In this document: piece after piece, positions 2,228 to 11,740 of the stretch
How the letters are laid out: each line of letters begins with the position of its first letter
How positions within the stretch are numbered: the stretch's first letter is position 1
NCBI RefSeq assembly: GCF_030140925.1
Contig: NZ_JARBWD010000001.1
Coordinates: forward strand, 1,798,001-1,862,000
Length of the DNA: 64,000 nucleotides
From: Parerythrobacter aestuarii
GTDB taxonomy: Bacteria; Pseudomonadota; Alphaproteobacteria; Sphingomonadales; Sphingomonadaceae
Reading direction: 5' to 3'
Translations under genes and position numbers: made by a program
Notes under the pieces: generated by a model
Told to the model about the DNA's origin: nothing
The model's database searches: none
The model's input: the letters and a program-made list of their open reading frames with translations, nothing else

Positions 2228-2911
2228 TTACTCTTCGCCGCCCTCTTCGCCTTCGTCGTCGCCCTTCTGTTCGGTGGCTTCGACTTCATCGGCTGCGACT
2301 TCTTCTTCGCCTTCTTCACCGGCTGCGCCTTCGGCCTTCTTCAGCGCCGACGGAGCGACCAGCGTCGCGATGGTGTAGTCGCGATCGGTAATCGCGCTCT
2401 CGCTGCCTTCGGGCAGGGTGACTTCGCTGATGTGGATCGAATCGCCCACTTCCTTGCCGGTGACGTCGATCTCTATTTCACTCGGGATCTTGTCGGCAGC
2501 ACAGATAAGGTCGAGGTCGTGACGGATCACGTTGAGCACGCCGCCCTTCTTGAGGCCGGGGCTCTTCTCTTCGTTGACGAACACGACCGGGATCTGGACT
2601 TCAACCTTGGCGTCCTTGGACAGGCGCAGGAAGTCGACATGTTCCGGACGGTCGGTCACAGGGTGCAAAGCGACATCTTTCGGCAGCGTACGCACGGTCT
2701 TGCCGCCGACTTCGATATTCACGATCGAGTTCATGAAGTGGCCGGTGCCGAGCTGCTTGACCAGCTCCTTGGCTTCGACGTGAATCATCGTGGGTTCTTC
2801 TTTTCCGCCATAGATCACAGCGGGTACACGGCCATCGCGACGCAATGCACGGGAGGCTCCCTTGCCAGCCCGTTCGCGCGCTTCGGCCGGCAGGGTCAGA
2901 GCGTCGCTCAT
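2228..2911 (-). CDS. rplY: 50S ribosomal protein L25/general stress protein Ctc
   Basis: 227 residues: an N-terminal L25 domain binding 5S rRNA (about 1-95, with [13 protein letters not shown]), the longer Ctc/TL5-type second domain (about 96-190), and a strongly acidic Glu/Asp-rich tail of about 40 residues, typical of long-form alphaproteobacterial L25. Start ATG at 2911 follows an AGGT Shine-Dalgarno-like sequence. Monocistronic or first gene of the rplY-pth-kinase-SDR row, with a strong terminator right after its stop. Confidence 0.95.
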
Positions 2912-3043: not shown

Positions 3044-4264
3044 CTAGTACGCGCTGTCGCTGCGATGCCACTTCTTGAAGTTCGACATCCGCGCTTCCAG
3101 CTGCGGCGGGATGTGCAGCACGTCGGGCTGGTCCTGGTTGATGTAGACCAGCACATTGGGCGTCCATTTGGCAGTGCCATAGACTTCACCGGGTTCACGG
3201 TCGGGACGCGCAGCCTCGAAAACCTCGCCTTTCTCGGCATGCCACGCCCACGTTCCTTGGCCCTGACCGCCAAAACGCAGGCCCCGGATCACTTGCATTC
3301 CGGCACTGTAACCTTCCTGCTCCATCCGTTCGGTAGCCGAGACGACTGAGGCGGAGACGGTATCTCCTACTAGCCGGAAAGCGATCACACCGCCGGCATC
3401 GCTGGTCCAGTTGCCCAACAACCAATCCCAGCGGGTGCAAATGGGTTCCGTCGTTCCCATCGGGCAGGGATCGTCACTGATCGGTTCACCCTGCGCTTGG
3501 TCATCGTCAAAGCTGATGGGTTTCTTGGTCTTCTCTTCCTTCTCCTCCTTCTTGGGCGGTTCCTTTTTCTCAGGAGGACAGGGATCGGTCGCAGCCTGCA
3601 TCTTGGGTAATGCAGCTTCCATTTCCTTGATGATCTTCTGAAGATGCCCGGTGCTGGGCGCAGCAAGACCATCCGAGCGCGGATCGATCCTGATTTTGCT
3701 CGCATTGGGCCCCAGCGAGAGCGCTGTACTCAACTCGCGTTTGCGCTGGCGCAGCAGGCGGACGAAACGGTTGAAACGCAAGCGCGCCAATGCCTTGCGC
3801 CGTGCCTCAGGGGTCGCACAATCGGCAAGTCCGGAGTGAAAGCTGGAGGCAATAATTGCACCGTCGCAAGCCTGTTCAACGGACCGCCACAGCCCGCCAA
3901 AGAAATCCAAAGTGATTTCCTTGTCCGCAATCAGGGCGGGGTGGTCCTTGAGCGGCGCGTAGGTATTGACGCGATATGCGTCATCCTCGACGAGGTAGTA
4001 CAGGTCCGAAAAGCCTTCGCGCGAGCGCATGAAGCCGAGATAATTGCAGGAGTTGATAACCTGCTGGGCTTCCTTGCGGTAGCTCCCCGTATTGTACTCC
4101 TCGAAGAAGAAGTTGGAGTTCTTCGGGCGAGGCGGAAGTGGGTCGATATCGCTGATCTGTGATCCCGCCGTGGTTTGGGCCACTGCCGCTGGCAAAAGGC
4201 AGGCCAGGAGAAGCGCCAGGCTTGCGCCAACCATGCGTGCCAGGATGAGCTGCACGCCCAGCAT
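3044..4264 (-). CDS. secreted protein of unknown function, paralog of the 4264-5154 gene
   Basis: About 406 residues. N-terminal signal peptide (MVGASLALLLACLLPAAVAQ), a middle region with cysteines, a Lys/Glu/Pro-rich linker around residues 230-255, and a C-terminal domain of about 125 residues shared with the upstream neighbour: CTRWDWLLGNW, GGVIAFRL, FGGQGQGTWAWHAE, YGTAKWTPNVLVYI and a final SNFKKW. I do not recognise the family. The chosen ATG at 4264 shares its A with the TGA of the upstream gene (TGATG), suggesting translational coupling; an ATG at 4276 would add four residues. The tandem arrangement and shared domain show gene duplication. Predicted periplasmic or extracellular. Confidence 0.72.
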   Translation of the reverse strand: MLGVQLILARMVGASLALLLACLLPAAVAQTTAGSQISDIDPLPPRPKNSNFFFEEYNTGSYRKEAQQVINSCNYLGFMRSREGFSDLYYLVEDDAYRVNTYAPLKDHPALIADKEITLDFFGGLWRSVEQACDGAIIASSFHSGLADCATPEARRKALARLRFNRFVRLLRQRKRELSTALSLGPNASKIRIDPRSDGLAAPSTGHLQKIIKEMEAALPKMQAATDPCPPEKKEPPKKEEKEEKTKKPISFDDDQAQGEPISDDPCPMGTTEPICTRWDWLLGNWTSDAGGVIAFRLVGDTVSASVVSATERMEQEGYSAGMQVIRGLRFGGQGQGTWAWHAEKGEVFEAARPDREPGEVYGTAKWTPNVLVYINQDQPDVLHIPPQLEARMSNFKKWHRSDSAY

Positions 4265-5154
4265 CACCGCACCCATTGCTTGAAGTTGGAAATCCGGCCT
4301 TCAAGCGCGCTCGGCAAATAGAGGACGCCGGGGCGCACTTTCTCAATATACACGATGGCCCCTGGCGACCAGCGCGCTGTCCCCCGAACCTGGTCGGGCT
4401 TGCGGTCGGGCTTCTTCGCTTCGTAGTGCGCCCCGCCTTCGGCATGCCAAGCCCAGGTTCCCTGGTTTCGCCCGCCGAACTTGAGGTCGCTGATCAGCGG
4501 AGTGCCGGCCGTGTACCCTTCTTCTGCCATCTGCTTGTTCGGAGTCACGACAAAGGCTGCGACGGTCTTGCCATCAAGCCGGAATTCGATGACTCCGCCA
4601 TATTCGCGATTGGTCCAGCGACCCAGCAGCCATTCCCACTGGATGCAGAGTGGATCCACGGTGTCCTTTGGGCACCGTTCGATGATGGAGCCAACTTCAC
4701 GGACAGCTTCTGCTTGCGGTCCTTCTCCTTCACGCAAGCCCTCGATAAAGGTATCGAGGTCACGCGAATGGCTGGGATCGGTCAGCTCGTAGGCGCGCAC
4801 AGCCACCTGGTAATCTTCCTGAACATTCTTTCGAACAGTGTCGCCGACATCGGGATTCGACGCCACGCTGGTAACTCGCTTGCGATGCCATTCGATCAAC
4901 CGTTGCAAGCGAGATCGATGGCGGTCGAGCAACTCCTGGCGCGCTTGCAAGTCGGGATATGCGGCGTCGTCTCGATTGCGATAGGCAGCGATATAATCGG
5001 CCAGTATCCGCCCCGCCGAAGTGGCATCGAATACTTCCTCTGACTGGTCGGCCTTTGCCGGCCCGGTACGGTGATCGGTTTGAGCTTGTGCGGGTCCAGC
5101 GAGGACGTTGAGCGCAATAACAGCTGCCAAGAACAGCGACTTTCCTGCAAGCAC
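4264..5154 (-). CDS. secreted protein of unknown function, paralog of the 3044-4264 gene
   Basis: 296 residues from a GTG at 5154, chosen because GGAGG lies 8 bases upstream and the resulting N-terminus is a clean signal peptide (LFLAAVIALNVLAGPAQAQ). The open frame extends to 5271, but that longer form would bury the signal peptide. The N-terminal half is helical and charged; the C-terminal domain (about 165-296, beginning CPKDTVDPLCIQWEWLLGRW) matches that of the downstream paralog almost motif for motif (GGVIEFRL, GTWAWHAE, GTARWSPGAIVYI, SNFKQW). Two cysteines precede the domain. Function unknown. Confidence 0.75.
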   Translation of the reverse strand: MLAGKSLFLAAVIALNVLAGPAQAQTDHRTGPAKADQSEEVFDATSAGRILADYIAAYRNRDDAAYPDLQARQELLDRHRSRLQRLIEWHRKRVTSVASNPDVGDTVRKNVQEDYQVAVRAYELTDPSHSRDLDTFIEGLREGEGPQAEAVREVGSIIERCPKDTVDPLCIQWEWLLGRWTNREYGGVIEFRLDGKTVAAFVVTPNKQMAEEGYTAGTPLISDLKFGGRNQGTWAWHAEGGAHYEAKKPDRKPDQVRGTARWSPGAIVYIEKVRPGVLYLPSALEGRISNFKQWVR

Positions 5155-5267
5155 GGGTCGAGCCTCCGCAACACCAGACACGCTGCTGCCTTCCAGCAGC
5201 GCGTGCAACCTTCGACCCGCGGTGAAAATGGTAGCAGAACCCGGCAAATGGGCCAAATTGCCGCAAA

Positions 5268-6149
5268 TCAAGGTGTGCGGCGTATGCTATATCCCTTGCT
5301 GCGCAACAGTGAGACCAGCCCCCCCGGACCGACAAGATGCGCTGCTCCGACGGCAACCAGAGGCCGTTCAGGGACGGCCAGCATAGCCTCGATCTGCTTG
5401 CTCCAGTTGAGGTTGCGACTGACCAGGAGGGCTTGCCGCAGCTCCGGATCGGCGAGCATGCCGTCCTCAAGCTCATCGACGAGCGCGGCCTCGTCGCCGG
5501 CAAGCCAGAGTTCGGCCGGACGCATGGCGGCGGCTGGATCCTGCGCTTGTGCCACAACGGCGGCAAGCAAGGCTCGCTGGTCTTCCTCCGCCAGGGCGTC
5601 GAAGATGGCGAATTGCCGTTTTGCCCCTTCCAGTTCAGCGATACGGCGCCCGGCAAATTGCTTAAGCAACGCCATATCGACACCGTTTGCATTGTCGGAT
5701 TGCGTCGGAACCGCTTGGGCAATGATGAGCGCAGCAGCCCATGTCTCAATCTCGCGATAGTCTTCAGGAGAATAGGGCGTCTTGCGCGCCAGGTCCTCCA
5801 GCGCCGAGCGCTTGCCAACAGGAACTCGTTGATGGAGGAGTGGATGTCCGCTCGAACGGGCCGCTTCCGAAAATGCCTTCGACAATGCCTGGCTGTCATC
5901 GAGGTCGGCGACTTCGACAACGAGGAAATCGGCCCGATCGATAATGTCGGCGACAGCGCCGGTTTGCCAATCGACTCCGTCGGGCAGAGCGTGGATGGTC
6001 CCGTAGAGCCACCCCTCGACCTGTCCTTCCGAATTGGCGATTTCCCACAGCAGGGGATTCTCCGCCGTGGTCGGCGGTGAATCTACTTCACTGCATGCGC
6101 CCAGCAGCAAAGCCGCCAGGCAGGCGATGGCAAACCGGCCTCCGATCAT
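5268..6149 (-). CDS. TraB/GumN family lipoprotein
   Basis: 293 residues. Lipoprotein signal with lipobox LLGAC (lipidated Cys19), so membrane-anchored in the cell envelope. TraB/GumN fold: first GxxH motif GTIH (residues 50-53, in YGTIHALPDG), conserved Glu79 in VVEVADLD, the SRNLNW segment near 244-249, and second GxxH motif GAAH (268-271). Two GxxH motifs plus the Glu are the putative metal-binding set of the TraB/Tiki protease-like superfamily; bacterial GumN members have no established substrate. Start overlaps the stop of the upstream TraB gene by ATGA. Confidence 0.88.
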   Translation of the reverse strand: MIGGRFAIACLAALLLGACSEVDSPPTTAENPLLWEIANSEGQVEGWLYGTIHALPDGVDWQTGAVADIIDRADFLVVEVADLDDSQALSKAFSEAARSSGHPLLHQRVPVGKRSALEDLARKTPYSPEDYREIETWAAALIIAQAVPTQSDNANGVDMALLKQFAGRRIAELEGAKRQFAIFDALAEEDQRALLAAVVAQAQDPAAAMRPAELWLAGDEAALVDELEDGMLADPELRQALLVSRNLNWSKQIEAMLAVPERPLVAVGAAHLVGPGGLVSLLRSKGYSIRRTP

Positions 6150-7066
6150 TGCACCCGCGTGACTGTGATACCGCGCTGGGCCAGCAAATCCTGCACGCTC
6201 CGCTCCCCGGCAAGATGGCCTGCGCCCACCGCGACGAAGACAGTACCCGGCTGGTCAAGGCGCTCATCGATCCAGACCGCCCAATTGGCATTGCGGCTGT
6301 AAAGCACCGCTTCAGCCAATTCAGGCGTTTCCGCCATGCCTTCATTCATGATGGCACCCAGTCCATCAGGATCGCCTTCGACCCATTCCGCTACCATAGC
6401 ATCGACCATGGTTTTGACCTCGTCGACGCCATCGACGATCTGTTCCAGGTAGGCAATCTGGGCCTCTATCGGCGCACCGTCGAAGATCGACATCTGGAAC
6501 TCGATTGTTTCCAGCGCTCCACGCTCCAGGCGGCTGTCAGCAGTCGCCTCCAGCACCTTTTCGACGCCCTGGTCGATCTGGTAGCCATGCTTGATAAGCG
6601 GCAACAGGGACAGGTTCAGCGTCGCAAACCACGGCTCATAAGGGTCGAACGCGGCAGGTGGCATTCCCAGAGACAGCATGGCGGCCTCATACTTCAACCT
6701 TTGCTCTTCAGACAGCAGGCTACGCAAGGTCGTCCCCGCAGGAAGCATGCCCAGTTCAGCCACCAGTTGCTGGGTTCTGACAGTCGTTTCGGGAGACATG
6801 AGAATCTCCGTGACCAACATGTCGGAGCTGTCGAGCGCGGTATCGATTTCGGGTGTCATCCACTTAACACCGTCGGGCAATACATGGACCGTGCCGAACA
6901 GGTAGATGGTGGTATCTTCATCAGCCACTTTCCACAGCGCGGGGCCCGTAGGCGCGGGAGCGACCATCTCCGACGCATCGATCGGGACCTGGGCCATAGC
7001 TGCTGGGGAAATCAGCAAGGCCAATGCGGCAACTGCGGCGGTGAGGGATGATTTGAGCGGATTCAT
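6146..7066 (-). CDS. TraB/GumN family periplasmic protein
   Basis: 306 residues from the ATG at 7066, preceded by AGGAAAGA. A Sec-type signal peptide (to about AAMAQ, residue 26) replaces the lipobox of its neighbour. Both GxxH motifs are intact (GTVH 58-61, GAGH 281-284), as are the conserved Glu87 and the SRNANW segment. The frame is open further upstream but without a better start. Second of three TraB/GumN paralogs in 6 kb; translationally coupled to the lipoprotein paralog (ATGA at 6146-6149). A protease- or hydrolase-like role in the envelope is inference from the Tiki relatives. Confidence 0.88.
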   Translation of the reverse strand: MNPLKSSLTAAVAALALLISPAAMAQVPIDASEMVAPAPTGPALWKVADEDTTIYLFGTVHVLPDGVKWMTPEIDTALDSSDMLVTEILMSPETTVRTQQLVAELGMLPAGTTLRSLLSEEQRLKYEAAMLSLGMPPAAFDPYEPWFATLNLSLLPLIKHGYQIDQGVEKVLEATADSRLERGALETIEFQMSIFDGAPIEAQIAYLEQIVDGVDEVKTMVDAMVAEWVEGDPDGLGAIMNEGMAETPELAEAVLYSRNANWAVWIDERLDQPGTVFVAVGAGHLAGERSVQDLLAQRGITVTRVQ

Positions 7067-7133
7067 GTGGGGGTCTTTCCTGATTTGGGGGGCATTGAGG
7101 GAAAGTGAACAAGATGACCAAGGAGACACCCGT

Positions 7134-7328
7134 TCAGCGTTGGTCGTCGAATATTTCTTCAATTGGCATGGCGAACAGCCGGGCAATGCGAAAGGCCAAC
7201 GGGAGCGAGGGATCGTGCTTGCCGGTTTCGATCGCGTTGACTGCCTGTCGAGACACATCGAGCCGGCTCGCCAGTTCCGCCTGGCTCCAGTCGCGCTCGG
7301 CACGGAGCACTTTGAGGCGGTTCTTCAT
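7134..7328 (-). CDS. XRE family helix-turn-helix regulator, 64 residues
   Basis: Short Cro/CI-type repressor consisting of little more than the HTH domain: MKNRLKVLRAERDWSQAELA, then SRLDVSRQAVNAIETGK (recognition helix) and a short tail PIEEIFDDQR. Start ATG at 7328 overlaps the stop of the preceding membrane-protein gene by ATGA. Small XRE regulators coupled to a membrane protein gene often control their own operon; the paired GTCA-N8-TGAC boxes at 8306-8361 are the obvious candidate operator, but that link is inference. Confidence 0.88.
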   Translation of the reverse strand: MKNRLKVLRAERDWSQAELASRLDVSRQAVNAIETGKHDPSLPLAFRIARLFAMPIEEIFDDQR

Positions 7329-7750
7329 GCAACCACGCCCCGGAACCGGTAGGTGAAATAACCGACCGACCAGCTGCCAAGCAGCAATGCCATCATCTGC
7401 CCAGTGGTCGGCGTTCCCAGCCAACGGGACAGAAGCAAATCGCTCGACCAGATAAAACCGACGAACAGCGTCGTAGCGACCGCTACGAGGGCGGCACTGG
7501 AAATCAGCTGGAAGGAATATTCCTCCGTGCCGCGCCGATCCAGCGCTGCAAGCCTGGTCACGAGGAAACCCACGATCGCCATCAGTAGAACGACAGTGCC
7601 CGCAGTAATCCATGGGTTGGGCGCGATGATCACGCTCTTGGTCGCATCGAAGGAATCGACAGTCAGGCCAGCAATTCCAATCACGGTCATGATGGCGAAC
7701 GAGACATCGGCCTTGCGCATTTGCCAGTCGCGCCGGGACAATTTTTCCAT
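7325..7750 (-). CDS. four-helix membrane protein paired with XRE regulator
   Basis: 141 residues with four predicted membrane segments (about 17-33, 46-66, 82-103 and 116-137) and a Tyr/Arg-rich C-terminus (WSVGYFTYRFRG). Family not recognised by name. The ending WSxGYxxxRxRG is shared with the protein at 7841-8272, so the two are paralogs. Start ATG at 7750; its stop overlaps the XRE start by ATGA, showing coupling. May sense or relay a membrane signal to the regulator, but nothing in the sequence proves it. Confidence 0.75.
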   Translation of the reverse strand: MEKLSRRDWQMRKADVSFAIMTVIGIAGLTVDSFDATKSVIIAPNPWITAGTVVLLMAIVGFLVTRLAALDRRGTEEYSFQLISSAALVAVATTLFVGFIWSSDLLLSRWLGTPTTGQMMALLLGSWSVGYFTYRFRGVVA

Positions 7751-7840
7751 GTCAGGTCTCCGGTTACGGGTGATAAAACAAGAAGGGGGAACAAGACGCC
7801 ATGCAGGCCCTGCTGAGTAGGAGCGAGGCAGGTTGAACTT

Positions 7841-8272
7841 TCATTCGCCCGTGCCGCGCCAGCGGAGGAAAGCGTATCCTATGGACCATGCGAGACCCGC
7901 CATGGGAATTGCGCCAAGCGTCATCGGGCGGCTGATGGGAACGCCGAAGAGATGAAACGCAGTTACTTCGGCGAGTGCTGCCGCGATGATGAAGGTCACC
8001 ATGCCGATCAGGGCCGACTGCGCAACCACCTGGCGCATGTAGTCATCCCACCGTTGTCGATCGAACCGATGCGACAATGCGGTCGCGATGCCTGCCGCTA
8101 CGACAAAGGCGAGAAGCCAATGGCCGGCCCGGGCCTGGAACTCTCCTTCAAGCATAGGCAGGTCTGGCCGCTCCGCACCGAAGCCAAGGATGGCTAGTGA
8201 TCCGGTCCCGATAATGGCGAAAGTGAGGTCTGCCAGTCGTGGCGCGTAGAGACCTTTGGACGTTTGAGGCAT
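7841..8272 (-). CDS. four-helix membrane protein, first gene of the XRE operon
   Basis: 143 residues from the ATG at 8272; a TTG at 8293 would add seven residues. Four hydrophobic segments (about 14-33, 50-67, 86-105 and 116-137) and the C-terminal WSIGYAFLRWRG shared with the next gene. The promoter at 8322-8350 points into it, leaving a leader of roughly 40 bases. No clear Shine-Dalgarno sequence precedes the ATG. Function unknown. Confidence 0.7.
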   Translation of the reverse strand: MPQTSKGLYAPRLADLTFAIIGTGSLAILGFGAERPDLPMLEGEFQARAGHWLLAFVVAAGIATALSHRFDRQRWDDYMRQVVAQSALIGMVTFIIAAALAEVTAFHLFGVPISRPMTLGAIPMAGLAWSIGYAFLRWRGTGE

Positions 8273-8305
8273 GAGAGATAGTCCGTTCTGCAATTCTGAC
8301 TCAGT

Positions 8306-8361
8306 GTCAGGTATAATTGACTATATGTCGCGATTCGCTGACCATGTCAACATTACCTGAC
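8306..8361. promoter_or_regulatory. paired GTCA-N8-TGAC palindromic boxes, candidate operator
   Basis: GTCAGGTATAATTGAC (8306-8321) and GTCAACATTACCTGAC (8346-8361) are both GTCA-N8-TGAC dyads; the reverse complement of the first matches the second at 13 of 16 positions. Centres are 40 bases apart. Additional half-site pairs TGAC-N5-GTCA (8297-8309) and TGAC-CAT-GTCA (8339-8349) overlap them. The XRE regulator at 7134-7328 is the likely binder (inference). Confidence 0.6.
8322..8350 (-). promoter_or_regulatory. sigma-70-type promoter of the membrane protein/XRE operon
   Basis: On the minus strand a perfect -35 hexamer TTGACA (8345-8350) is followed after 17 bases by CATATA (8322-8327). Both elements touch GTCA/TGAC boxes: one box covers the -35, the other lies just downstream of the -10 over the expected start of transcription, the usual geometry for repression. 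Confidence 0.65.
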
Positions 8362-8442: not shown

Positions 8443-10542
8443 ATGACCACTATCCATCAACGCACCTGCCACATTTGCGAAGCCAATTGCGGCGTGCTGG
8501 TAGAGATGGACGGGCGCAAGGTTGTCTCCATCAAGGGCAATCCCGATCATGTATTGAGCCGGGGGCATATCTGCCCGAAAGCTACGGCAATCGCCGATTT
8601 ACAAGATGATCCGGATCGCCTGCGCCGTCCGGTCAAGCGCACCGCCGATGGCTGGCAGGAGCTCGACTGGGACACCGCCTTTCGCGAAATCGCGCAGAGG
8701 GCTGTGGCCCTGCAGGGCGAGGGCGCCCGCGCAGCCTTCTACCGCGGCAATCCCGGCGCGCATGATTATGCCCTGTCGACCCAATCGGGATATCTTCAGC
8801 GCGCGGTTGGCGCACGCGGCACTTTTTCCGCCTCTACGCTCGACCAGATCCCGCATCACTATGCACAGTACCAGCTTTACGGCCATGTCAGCCTGGCTGC
8901 AGTGCCCGATATCGATCGTTCGCAGCTGATCGTTATCGTCGGCGGCAATCCGATGGCGTCGAACGGGAGCCTGTGGACCGTCCCCGACTTCCGCAACCGG
9001 GTGAAGGAAATGCAGGCGCGCGGTGGCAAGCTGGTGGTGATCGACCCCCGCAAGACCGAAACCGCCCGCGTTGCCGACGAATGGCATCCGGTCATTCCCG
9101 GCACGGACACGGCACTTCTTATCGGTATCCTGCAATGCGTACTGGCCGATGGTGATGCGCTGCGACCGGGCCTGGCAGAACTGGTCGACAATAGCTGGAC
9201 GGATGTGAAACCGGCAGTCGATGCTTTCGACCTAGAGCAACTTGCGGTGCACTGCGGCATCGATGCAGATACAATCCGCAATCTGGCGGCAGAGCTATCC
9301 AGCGGCCGGCCTGCAGTCCTCTATGGCCGCATGGGTGTCTCGGTGTGCGAGTTCGGCGCGCTCAACCAGTGGCTGATACAACTGGTCAACCTCGCCACCG
9401 GCAATCTCGACCGCGAAGGCGGGGCGATGTTCCCGCAGCCGCTGCTTGACCTGGTCGGCATGGTCGGCCGCGGGGGAATCAAGACCGTCGAGACTGCACG
9501 TGGCACCTTGCCCTCCGTCATGAGCGAGATCCCTACCATCGCTTTCGCCGACGAGCTGCTGCGCGAGGATGACCAGCGCATCCGCACGCTGTTCGTGATC
9601 GCCGGCAACCCGGTGCTGTCAGCCCCCGATGGCGAGCGGACCGAGCAGGCGCTGCAAGGCCTCGACCTGATGGTGAGCATGGACATGCACATCACCGAGA
9701 CGAGCCGCCACGCGCATTACATCCTGCCGCCGTGCGGCCCGCTCGAGAAGGATCACTACACCTTCTTCTTCGGCCCGCTCGCGGTGCGCAATTTCGGGGC
9801 CTATTCGCCGCAGACCATCCCGATGGAGGAAGGTGCCAAGGCCGACTGGGAGATTGCGAGCGAACTGGCACAGGCGATCCTGGCCGAGAAGGGCAAGCCT
9901 GCGCCCAATTTCGAGACCCCGCGCGAACGGCTCGATGCGATGCTCAAGGCTTCGCCGGCGGGCATGTCTCTGGCGGAAGTCGAGGCGCAGCCCAATGGCG
10001 TCGACCTGGGGCCGCTCAAACCGTGCCTCAAGGACCGGCTGATGACCGAAAGCCGCAAGATCGAAGTCCTGTCCGATGCGCTGCAAGAAGATCTGCGGCG
10101 CTTTGCCGAGAGCATGGCAGCGAAGCCCGATGGCGCGCTGAGCCTGATCGGACGTCGCCATGTCCGCTCCAACAACAGCTGGTTGCACAATGCCCAGCGG
10201 CTGGTGAAGGGGCCGGATCGCTGCACCCTGATGATCCATCCTGCAGATGCTGCCGAACGCGGGCTGGAGGACGGCGATCTCGCCAGCGTTGCCAGCAGGG
10301 TTGGGCAGGTCGAAGTCGCTGTGGAAGTGACCGAGGACATCATGCCCGGCGTGGTCAGCATTCCGCACGGCTGGGGGCACCACCGCGAAGGCGTGAGCTG
10401 GAAGACCGCTGCTGCCCACGCCGGGGTATCGCTGAACGACCTGACCGATCCGGAACGGTACGACAGGTTGACCGGCAATGCGGTACTGAACGGGACGCCC
10501 GTAACAGTGGCGAAGGCAGCCGAGGTGGTTGCGGCAGAATAA
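8443..10542 (+). CDS. molybdopterin-dependent oxidoreductase, 4Fe-4S containing, orphan
   Basis: 699 residues of the DMSO reductase/formate dehydrogenase superfamily. N-terminal [4Fe-4S] site Cys9-x2-Cys12-x3-Cys16-x27-Cys44 (in TCHICEANCG and HICPKA), then molybdopterin domains with VVGGNPMAS, VVIDPRKTETA and FVIAGNPVLS, and a C-terminal molydopterin-dinucleotide binding domain (about 560-690, with IPHGWGHHREG). No signal peptide, so cytosolic. Start ATG follows GGAGGAGAGC. No electron-transfer partner subunit or cofactor gene is adjacent, so the substrate cannot be assigned. Divergent from the membrane protein/XRE operon. Confidence 0.88.
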   Translation: MTTIHQRTCHICEANCGVLVEMDGRKVVSIKGNPDHVLSRGHICPKATAIADLQDDPDRLRRPVKRTADGWQELDWDTAFREIAQRAVALQGEGARAAFYRGNPGAHDYALSTQSGYLQRAVGARGTFSASTLDQIPHHYAQYQLYGHVSLAAVPDIDRSQLIVIVGGNPMASNGSLWTVPDFRNRVKEMQARGGKLVVIDPRKTETARVADEWHPVIPGTDTALLIGILQCVLADGDALRPGLAELVDNSWTDVKPAVDAFDLEQLAVHCGIDADTIRNLAAELSSGRPAVLYGRMGVSVCEFGALNQWLIQLVNLATGNLDREGGAMFPQPLLDLVGMVGRGGIKTVETARGTLPSVMSEIPTIAFADELLREDDQRIRTLFVIAGNPVLSAPDGERTEQALQGLDLMVSMDMHITETSRHAHYILPPCGPLEKDHYTFFFGPLAVRNFGAYSPQTIPMEEGAKADWEIASELAQAILAEKGKPAPNFETPRERLDAMLKASPAGMSLAEVEAQPNGVDLGPLKPCLKDRLMTESRKIEVLSDALQEDLRRFAESMAAKPDGALSLIGRRHVRSNNSWLHNAQRLVKGPDRCTLMIHPADAAERGLEDGDLASVASRVGQVEVAVEVTEDIMPGVVSIPHGWGHHREGVSWKTAAAHAGVSLNDLTDPERYDRLTGNAVLNGTPVTVAKAAEVVAAE

Positions 10543-10557: not shown

Positions 10558-11628
10558 CTAGTTCTCGCTGTACTCAATCAACTGGCTCGGCAAGTCGGCG
10601 GTCGAGGGGTTGAGCCGCTCCACTTCATACCCCTTCTTCGCCAACAGACGCTGGACGGCGTCGGGGCCTTCGAAATGCCCGCCGCCAACTGCAATCAGCA
10701 CCGTCCCGGGTCGATCCATGCGATCGATGATCCAGTCGGTCCATTGCCTGTTCCGGTCGATGAGCAACACTTTGTAGAGCGCCTTGGAAAACGGGTCGGC
10801 CATCCATGACTGGAAGCTCTGCGGATCCTCGATGCCCAGCGCCCAAAGGTGTTCGAGCCGCCAATTGTAGCCGGTCATATCCGGCTCGAACCCGGCCAGG
10901 TCGACCCCGTCCCAATTGCTGAGGGCACCATCAAGTGTAGCGAGCGCCAGTTCTTCATCGAGCCCGATCACTGATTGCAAAACCGCCGCCGGATCCTCGA
11001 TCGCGTAGATGGGTTTGCCCGCCGCGCGGAATTCACGCTCGAGCACGGTTTCGACACCATATTCGCCCTCGGAACCACGCAACGCGCTGGTCGCGACGCT
11101 TATGAACATTAGCGACATGCTTGGAGGCATGTAGTCGAACGATCTGAAATCAAGCGCCGTGAGCTGGGCCAGCCTGCGCCACTTTGCCCGGTTGTCTTCG
11201 CTCAGGCGCGCGGAAATCGGGCTCCTGTCGGTCGATGCCGAAAAGATCGTTTCAAGCATGGTCGCATAGGCTTCGTCCTCGCTCGATTCGCTGCTCCGGG
11301 ACTCGAAAACAATCTCGTCCGACTTCCCGATCACCTCTTCCAGCAGCGGACTGCGCCAGCGAAATCCCTCGGGCAGGGCGTGAACCGTCCCGAAGAAATA
11401 CAGCGTCGTATCGCCATCGGCGAGCCGCCAGATCGCAGGGTCCGGGTCATAATCCTGGATGACAGGATTGGCCGCCTTGTAGGACGGCCTGCCGCCGGAC
11501 TCGGCGATTTCCGTAGGGGCACCGTTCTCTTCAGCGGTAGGTTGGGCCAGTGTCTCCCAGGCCGAAGCCGGCTGGAAGGGAAGAATGAGAAGCGCGGCAA
11601 GAGCGAGCGACCGGAGAAAATCAAGCAT
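10558..11628 (-). CDS. TraB/GumN family periplasmic protein, third copy
   Basis: 356 residues from ATG 11628 (a TTG two codons upstream is possible). Signal peptide ends near ASAWE; an extra 40-residue low-complexity stretch precedes the TraB domain. GxxH motifs GTVH (80-83) and GGGH (315-318) and the conserved Glu109 are kept. Longer than the two copies at 5268-7066 and more divergent (DRNRQW instead of SRNxNW). Convergent with the molybdopterin oxidoreductase (15 bases apart) and divergent from glyQ. Confidence 0.85.
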   Translation of the reverse strand: MLDFLRSLALAALLILPFQPASAWETLAQPTAEENGAPTEIAESGGRPSYKAANPVIQDYDPDPAIWRLADGDTTLYFFGTVHALPEGFRWRSPLLEEVIGKSDEIVFESRSSESSEDEAYATMLETIFSASTDRSPISARLSEDNRAKWRRLAQLTALDFRSFDYMPPSMSLMFISVATSALRGSEGEYGVETVLEREFRAAGKPIYAIEDPAAVLQSVIGLDEELALATLDGALSNWDGVDLAGFEPDMTGYNWRLEHLWALGIEDPQSFQSWMADPFSKALYKVLLIDRNRQWTDWIIDRMDRPGTVLIAVGGGHFEGPDAVQRLLAKKGYEVERLNPSTADLPSQLIEYSEN

Positions 11629-11740
11629 TCGCAATTGGTAGCGCGGGGCAACAGCAGATCAAGCCCGGATCGCACTGCCCGGTGACTTTGCTGCATTGCG
11701 GCATTGACGGTTTTTGAGCGCTACGCCATGGCCTCCCGCC

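Follow-up and report, generated by a model that had tools for sequence, protein, structure and literature searches.

In the cytolysin operon of Enterococcus faecalis, the regulator CylR2 binds and represses the cytolysin promoter and the suspected membrane protein CylR1 is thought to release it, with no phosphorelay involved, according to PMC3709268. PMC3709268 and PMC11385697 call CylR1/CylR2 signalling enigmatic and describe the route from the membrane protein to the regulator as not understood. A transcription regulator and a transmembrane partner are also joined in an autoregulated operon in the LytTR regulatory systems (LRS), as outlined in PMC6193735. Here we analyze a locus in a 64,000-nucleotide stretch of Parerythrobacter aestuarii DNA (the window; G000:C1:1798001-1862000, from a source genome of 3.0 Mb). 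Seven reading frames of the window, all on the minus strand, run from 8272 down to 3044. Read in the direction of transcription, they encode a paralogous pair of small membrane proteins, a 64-amino-acid Cro/C1 (XRE) regulator, two TraB/GumN proteins (gumN1 and gumN2) and two paralogous secreted proteins without a family name (sec1 and sec2). The regulator and the membrane genes are referred to as the cassette.

The best explanation of this locus, in which we place slightly better than even confidence, is that a CylR1/CylR2-like autoregulated membrane switch drives an exported TraB/GumN pair. The regulator would bind three tandem 16-bp palindromes around the -35 and -10 elements of its own operon and hold the operon down, and the small membrane proteins of the same operon, with an acidic 'DE/DDY' loop, would hold or release the regulator and so signal what state the membrane is in. 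Its release would allow transcription through the membrane genes, the regulator, gumN1 and gumN2 (here also sec1 and sec2), and two exported putative metalloproteases of the TIKI/TraB type would be produced without a phosphorelay. The gene order, the homologies, the operator and its co-occurrence with the regulator, on which this explanation builds, are read from the sequence.

Results

The cassette in front of the GumN pair

A search of 119 genomes of the family for the regulator gave a match at E <= 1e-8 in 72. All of the best 30 matches among these 119 genomes lie upstream of gumN1 on the same strand. Among the best 40, 37 lie near gumN1 (the last ten judged by coordinates), so that the XRE and membrane genes are not routinely far from TraB genes, an arrangement that would have spoken against the original prediction. 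We compared 52 gumN loci in stretches of 4.6-20 kb, one per genome. This set is not a random sample of the 119 genomes; it combines 29 of the best 30 matches, seven of the next ten chosen for their proximity to gumN1 and 16 loci with gumN1 and no close regulator. The remaining one of the best 30 (G082) lies on a short contig and was kept out of this set.

In 51 of the 52 loci glyQ is found on the far side of the block (the exception is G091), and rplY lies behind the GumN genes in 47. A second GumN gene, partial copies included, is present in 43. We use rplY, pth, glyQ, glnA and 'hydrolase' as putative gene names. In each of the 36 loci with the regulator (XRE-positive) it stands upstream of gumN1 on the gumN1 strand, and in 34 of them it lies between the operator and gumN1. 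Because of these positions of glyQ, rplY, the GumN genes and the regulator, the GumN pair looks like the older part of the locus, with the regulator and membrane genes set before it as a cassette. Parsimony on a tree built with FastTree from 51 of the 52 loci needs eight switches between presence and absence of the cassette, and its history on this reading of the sequences is one of repeated loss or gain. Two genomes without the cassette, G004 and G098, have congeners (G161 and G281) with the operator core.

The regulator and the operator/promoter unit

The solved proteins closest in sequence to the 64-residue regulator are 9k3w, a regulator of the 'PbsX family' (E 9.4e-25), and CylR2 (66 amino acids), which matches its residues 3-61 at E 3.5e-13. 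Over the 36 loci the regulator has a mean pairwise identity of 0.87, comparable to that of GlyQ (0.86). The values for gumN1 (0.49) and gumN2 (0.37, with loci that have one GumN gene entering that gene) are lower.

The operator/promoter unit consists of three 16-bp inverted repeats (8361-8346, 8342-8327 and 8321-8306) of the form GTMA-N8-TGAC, whose starts are spaced 19 and 21 bp apart; in the window the middle repeat ends in CGAC. A -35 element, TTGACA (8350-8345), overlaps the first palindrome, and the third takes in the final two bases of the candidate -10 element, TATAGT (8325-8320). The middle palindrome falls wholly inside the 19-bp spacer between the two elements. This pair is omitted by a generic promoter scan, which takes spacers of 16-18 bp only; the three hits of that scan, against 2.2 expected, are no clear excess, and the two on the minus strand lie inside gumN2.

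By weight matrix (threshold score at least 48), an intact 57-bp unit is present in 34 of the 36 XRE-positive gumN loci and in none of the 16 XRE-negative ones. The matrix was built from 27 distinct sequences that are themselves among the 34 positive loci. Since it was trained on loci counted as positive, the telling figures are the 16 empty loci, where the best scores are -20 or lower, and the contrast with the flanks: mean pairwise identity over the 34 loci is 0.77 within the unit and 0.35 and 0.31 in the adjoining 57-bp flanks. The two XRE-positive exceptions (L107 and L109) and a fragment on a short contig (L047, a 37th locus) score -6, -5 and 1; by eye, these three show two or three palindromes with the same half-sites near the regulator, the spacing altered or the middle one worn. 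A 19-base operator core, with one mismatch allowed, occurs in 63 of 298 genomes of the family, and the reversed control pattern in none. Two genomes kept in this count (G221 and G291) have only TTGCCAGCGTCAGCGAATC, which is probably unrelated. In a class-wide sample the core was found in three of the five genomes of the own family and in 0 of 380 others.

The claim of seven same-strand genes behind a box-framed promoter is borne out, and the 'boxes' are the ends of the 57-bp triple-palindrome unit; the suggestion of a regulated operon with its own regulator and operator gains support from the co-occurrence of the two. In the window's own genome, the exact pattern of two adjacent GTCA-N8-YGAC sites fits only at 8361-8305, and the regulator likely has a single target there, as judged by a scan limited to the exact double site (single sites and GTAA variants fall outside it). 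A divergent molybdopterin oxidoreductase gene starts 82 bp away from the operator, which might influence this gene as well. Unlike in the window, the divergent neighbour in most of the relatives examined is glyQ.

The same sites can be read as a positive-feedback switch of the LRS kind, in which the regulator would act as an activator of the promoter and the membrane proteins would inhibit it; bound at the middle palindrome, it might bend the 19-bp spacer. That regulator and membrane gene share one autoregulated operon is also the LRS plan (PMC6193735), and a middle palindrome wholly between TTGACA and TATAGT fits an activator. LRS regulators, however, are LytTR proteins with direct repeats just upstream of the -35 element, while the regulator here is an HTH_3 protein; the sites here are inverted repeats, of which the outer two overlap the -35 element and the end of the -10 element, as is usual for repression. 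We therefore consider activation unlikely. In the CylR1/CylR2-like switch that we favour, the regulator would bind the palindromes as a dimer and would repress rather than activate.

The small membrane proteins

Membrane protein 1 has no Pfam match at E <= 1, and membrane protein 2 has nothing above the cut-off in Pfam or NCBIfam, its best match being NF011877 at 20.2 bits against 104 needed. An EscS-type name (NCBIfam) and MgtE (21.4 bits against 27.6 needed) were rejected as weak and below the cut-off. The AlphaFold model of membrane protein 2 has four long helices, with a mean predicted local distance difference test score (pLDDT) of 72.4.

Using a simple filter, we found 64 membrane open reading frames (ORFs) between the operator and gumN1 in 35 of the 36 XRE-positive loci, one to four in each. 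In the remaining locus (G105) the filter is empty, but tblastn detects a relative of a G002 membrane protein. For the two XRE-positive loci lacking the unit the search ran from 1.5 kb before the regulator, and G091 contributes two ORFs that are probably unrelated; starts were set mechanically, which leaves some ORFs overlong. The 64 ORFs cluster as 41, 11 and 9 plus three singles (BLAST, E 1e-5). An acidic motif, [RKHNQ]-x(1,2)-[DE][DE]-[YFLHVQMWA], is present in 56 of them, against a mean of 6 and a maximum of 12 in 200 shuffles, and most of the eight ORFs without it show DDY, DEY or DEH in slightly altered surroundings. Four loci (L116, L118, L108 and L117) have three or four cassette membrane genes of differing types in an order that is similar by eye.

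A toxin-antitoxin-like unit, with small membrane toxins under an autoregulating XRE antitoxin, would account for a small XRE protein with palindromic operators at the operon promoter and for small membrane genes that vary in number and type. We think it very improbable given that the acidic motif is kept in 56 of the 64 ORFs, that the membrane proteins searched match no family, toxins included, above cut-off in Pfam or NCBIfam and none in PHROGs at E <= 0.01 (PADLOC was outside the search) and that the membrane proteins differ widely beside a regulator that hardly varies. This combination of a fixed regulator and operator with fast-changing membrane partners is the oddest feature of the locus. 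In the favoured switch, it is these partners that would do the sensing.

The GumN proteins and proposed read-through from the cassette

Both GumN proteins match PF01963 over profile positions 1-263 of 263, with 262.5 bits for gumN1 and 169.6 for gumN2 (cut-off 26.8), and both have signal sequences when read by eye. The gumN1 product contains GxxH twice in 52 of 52 loci, and so does that of gumN2, with a single GumN gene counted twice in nine loci. We take the two GxxH motifs to be catalytic marks of TIKI/TraB proteases, and the pair may have protease activity.

XRE and gumN1 are separated in the window by 67 bp (7067-7133) that contain no terminator-like site. Three such sites were found in the scan against 5.8 expected, and the two on the minus strand lie within membrane protein 2 (7473-7459) and the sec1 start (5137-5123). 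Scanning the 150 bp before gumN1 for a sigma-70 site revealed nothing consistent, in a scan without power. XRE-positive loci reach 6-10 of 12, with 31 of the 36 at most 8 and the other five (G068, G087, G009, G023 and G026) at 9-10; XRE-negative loci, which necessarily have a promoter of their own, reach 6-9 of 12, with 15 of the 16 at most 8 and one at 9. From the position of the genes, we infer that transcription from the cassette promoter would read through into gumN.

A rather different explanation is that the XRE and membrane genes control nothing but their own expression and stand by chance before an independent housekeeping GumN locus. Such a passenger cassette would fit the persistence of the GumN genes without it in 16 loci, the eight parsimony changes in its presence and the related XRE-membrane pairs at other loci (see below), and gumN may have its own promoter. 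Set against this, the best 30 regulator matches are always upstream on the gumN strand, though related by descent, and the 67-bp gap in the window is free of terminator-like sites. On balance we regard a passenger cassette as somewhat unlikely, and retain a switch that drives the GumN pair.

Paralogous cassettes

Related regulators are found in further cassettes. Those of class 3 (54-62% identity), with a glnA-like gene alongside in L016 and L094, have close upstream a triple palindrome with another core, GTAAAGAGCTCTTGAC-T-GACAAGAGCTCTTTAC-A-GTAAAGAGCTCTTTAC, and spacings of 17 and 17. This triple site fits at least 41 of 50 positions in eight of ten loci, compared with 22-26 in shuffled loci. 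Class 2 regulators (72-85% identity) have a hydrolase-like gene alongside in L085 and L021. Identical half-sites combined with different cores point to separate control, with each regulator acting on its own cassette. L085 (G000:C1:359798-359980) is a second CylR2-like XRE gene (79%) in the window's genome, which overlaps a gene for a membrane protein of about 210 amino acids and is followed by the hydrolase-like gene; L021 shares this context, and the membrane protein there is of the window's type.

The secreted pair

The sec proteins match no family above the cut-off in Pfam or NCBIfam and none in PHROGs (E <= 0.01); the best Pfam match of sec1, in its N-terminal half, reaches 12.6 bits against 24.3 needed. 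An AlphaFold model of sec1 on four rows (mean pLDDT 60) matches no solved fold at E <= 0.001; a lipocalin stands at rank 15 with E 1.0. When 298 genomes of the family were searched with a two-row profile of the C-terminal domain, three had it (the window, G134 and G155), and no sec gene was found in the four other genomes of the genus, one of them only 73% complete. A four-row profile run on 396 genomes of the order returned the same three, a remnant in G189 and weak matches in longer proteins of G398 and G521. Among 84,980 genomes, a pattern scan picked out Sphingorhabdus sp. EL138 and, once more, the contig of G155, where an earlier two-row scan had given none. A plasmid origin of sec1 was considered and rejected, as no match was found in 72,556 plasmid records (sec2 was outside this search). 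Two loci (L101 1399-3132 and L102 1342-3000) encode secreted-looking proteins of 577 and 552 amino acids whose N-terminal part holds a diverged version of the C-terminal domain of sec; this points to a broader domain family, so far without a name, that shares a WLxGTW motif.

In G134 (L016), a class 3 regulator-membrane pair has the sec gene at its 3' end. L094 is the L016 locus without the sec gene, and L100 holds a sec remnant. At two of four sites (L017 and L095) the sec gene is alone, with no XRE gene in the 17-20 kb covered. At the other two of the four it comes last in an XRE-membrane operon, which is suggestive, and no more than that. The lone G155 homologue (L017 9180-11709) lies in a lower-GC stretch, among neighbours that by eye look terminase- and portal-like, of a gene-transfer agent or prophage-like kind.

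The original prediction suggested that the locus could be an envelope quality-control or proteolysis module, either role being conjectural; on this view it would be a dedicated seven-gene operon with the secreted pair as a working part. One direction and short gaps throughout are in keeping with this proposal, as is the sec gene that likewise ends an XRE-membrane pair in G134. The proposal is nevertheless quite improbable, as sec occurs in only three of 298 family genomes and in none of the four others of the genus, is lone at L017 and L095 and is a remnant in L100; the whole locus as one system was rejected on these grounds, and the secreted pair is not supported as part of the module. By locus comparison, the secreted pair is a rare addition, and the locus is made of three layers, the GumN pair between glyQ and rplY-pth, the regulatory cassette and the rare secreted pair, rather than one seven-gene system. 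The seven-gene set as such was met only in this strain among the genomes searched.

Layout of the locus

Coordinates are collected in Table 1. The pairing of families noticed earlier holds: membrane proteins 1 and 2 are paralogous (26% identity, E 1e-4), both GumN proteins belong to PF01963 and the C-terminal domains of sec1 and sec2 are 54% identical. The block is flanked by the molybdopterin oxidoreductase gene (8443-10542, plus strand; PF00384) and by rplY(ctc)-pth. ATGA overlaps join the stop of membrane protein 2 to the XRE start and the stop of gumN1 to the gumN2 start, and sec1 and sec2 overlap by 13 bp provided that sec2 starts at 4276. The GTG start of sec1, behind GGAGG, was our choice; the longest frame begins at 5271. 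A third TraB/GumN gene in the window (10558-11634; PF01963, E 7e-50) adjoins glyQ. A similar third gene lies between glyQ and the operator in G103, G104, G026 and G100, and between glyQ and gumN1 in G065.

Table 1. Positions in the window of the cassette, the genes behind it and their neighbours
Feature	Coordinates	Strand	Basis
Operator/promoter unit, 57 bp, three palindromes	8305..8361	-	Weight matrix and locus comparison
Small membrane protein 1, 143 amino acids, loop motif DRQRWDDY	7841..8272	-	ORF; paralogue of membrane protein 2
Small membrane protein 2, 141 amino acids, loop motif DRRGTEEY	7325..7750	-	ORF
XRE (Cro/C1) regulator, 64 amino acids, CylR2-like	7134..7328	-	HTH_3, E 4.8e-15
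gumN1, TraB/GumN, two GxxH motifs	6146..7066	-	PF01963, E 7.3e-78; export signal by eye
gumN2, TraB/GumN, lipobox-like LLGAC	5268..6149	-	PF01963, E 1.6e-49
sec1, secreted, 296 amino acids from GTG 5154	4264..5154	-	ORF; family not matched
sec2, secreted paralogue of sec1, 410 amino acids	3044..4276	-	C-terminal domain 54% identical to sec1
rplY (ctc)-like neighbour, outside the cassette	2228..2911	-	rplY in 47/52 gumN loci
pth, after rplY	2054-1485	-	Putative name

Discussion

Several observations weigh against a membrane switch that drives the GumN genes. Three of the best 40 regulator matches (G110, G080 and G065) are not near gumN1, and 16 examined loci keep gumN with neither regulator nor operator, which gives no support to a dependence of TraB on the regulator. 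The membrane proteins tested match no family above the cut-off in Pfam or NCBIfam and none in PHROGs (E <= 0.01), and the model of membrane protein 2 matches no solved fold at E <= 0.001. The likeness to CylR1/CylR2 concerns the regulator and the gene neighbourhood. With its middle palindrome in the 19-bp spacer, the regulator could be an activator. XRE-negative loci score no better than XRE-positive ones in the promoter scan, which is therefore mute on a separate gumN promoter. Among the paralogous cassettes, two class 3 loci are without an intact triple site (L016 with 33 of 50 positions, the middle site lost, and L165 with 29 of 50), and class 2 loci have one or two sites in nine of 16 and none in seven, a count without a control.

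Overall, these results indicate a real, conserved regulatory cassette with a clear operator, in which a known logic is found in a new setting. It is also possible, although we hold this only tentatively, that the cassettes represent a family-wide, undescribed form of membrane signalling, in which a near-invariant CylR2-like repressor with a near-invariant triple operator would take its input from one to four fast-changing membrane sensors and control exported TIKI-type proteases, the design recurring as paralogous cassettes that each have their own palindromes. A common group of CylR2 relatives with a sharply defined operator, one to four partner variants and cassette-free loci makes the CylR1/CylR2 question testable, and the cassette would give bacterial TraB/GumN proteins a regulatory context.

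Comparison with described systems

The claim that no described system has this set of genes stands in part: literature searches gave no contradiction, but the regulatory half has a known relative in CylR1/CylR2 (Bib1R1/Bib1R2). As in that pair, a Cro/C1 regulator of the same size is encoded with a small membrane protein. The regulator is homologous to CylR2 along its length, and a membrane gene stands beside it in 35 of the 36 loci by the filter and in G105 by tblastn. The locus differs in its one to four membrane proteins of several types, in the three-palindrome operator at its own operon promoter, in the TraB/GumN pair downstream and in its alphaproteobacterial host. No lanthipeptide gene is among the seven of the window (Pfam; peptides under 60 amino acids were outside the search), and so, by analogy, the cassette works like CylR1/CylR2 but is no cytolysin system.

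With LRS the locus shares the two-gene logic of a regulator and a membrane partner in an autoregulated operon. It has HTH_3 in place of the LytTR domain, which is absent from its 15 Pfam matches, and inverted repeats, the first overlapping the -35 element, in place of the direct repeats that lie upstream of it in LRS. Both GumN proteins are full-length matches to the TraB/PrgY/GumN family (TIKI-like, PF01963) with its two GxxH motifs; here they are paired, exported and placed behind what would be a membrane switch. Nothing among the genes examined ties the pair to conjugation pheromones or xanthan, though no search was aimed at such a link. Finally, lambda-type operators likewise consist of three palindromes side by side at a promoter, all serving one small Cro/C1 protein, and this operator differs from them in that it is not of phage, serves a single promoter and has spacings of 19/21 (class 1) or 17/17 (class 3).

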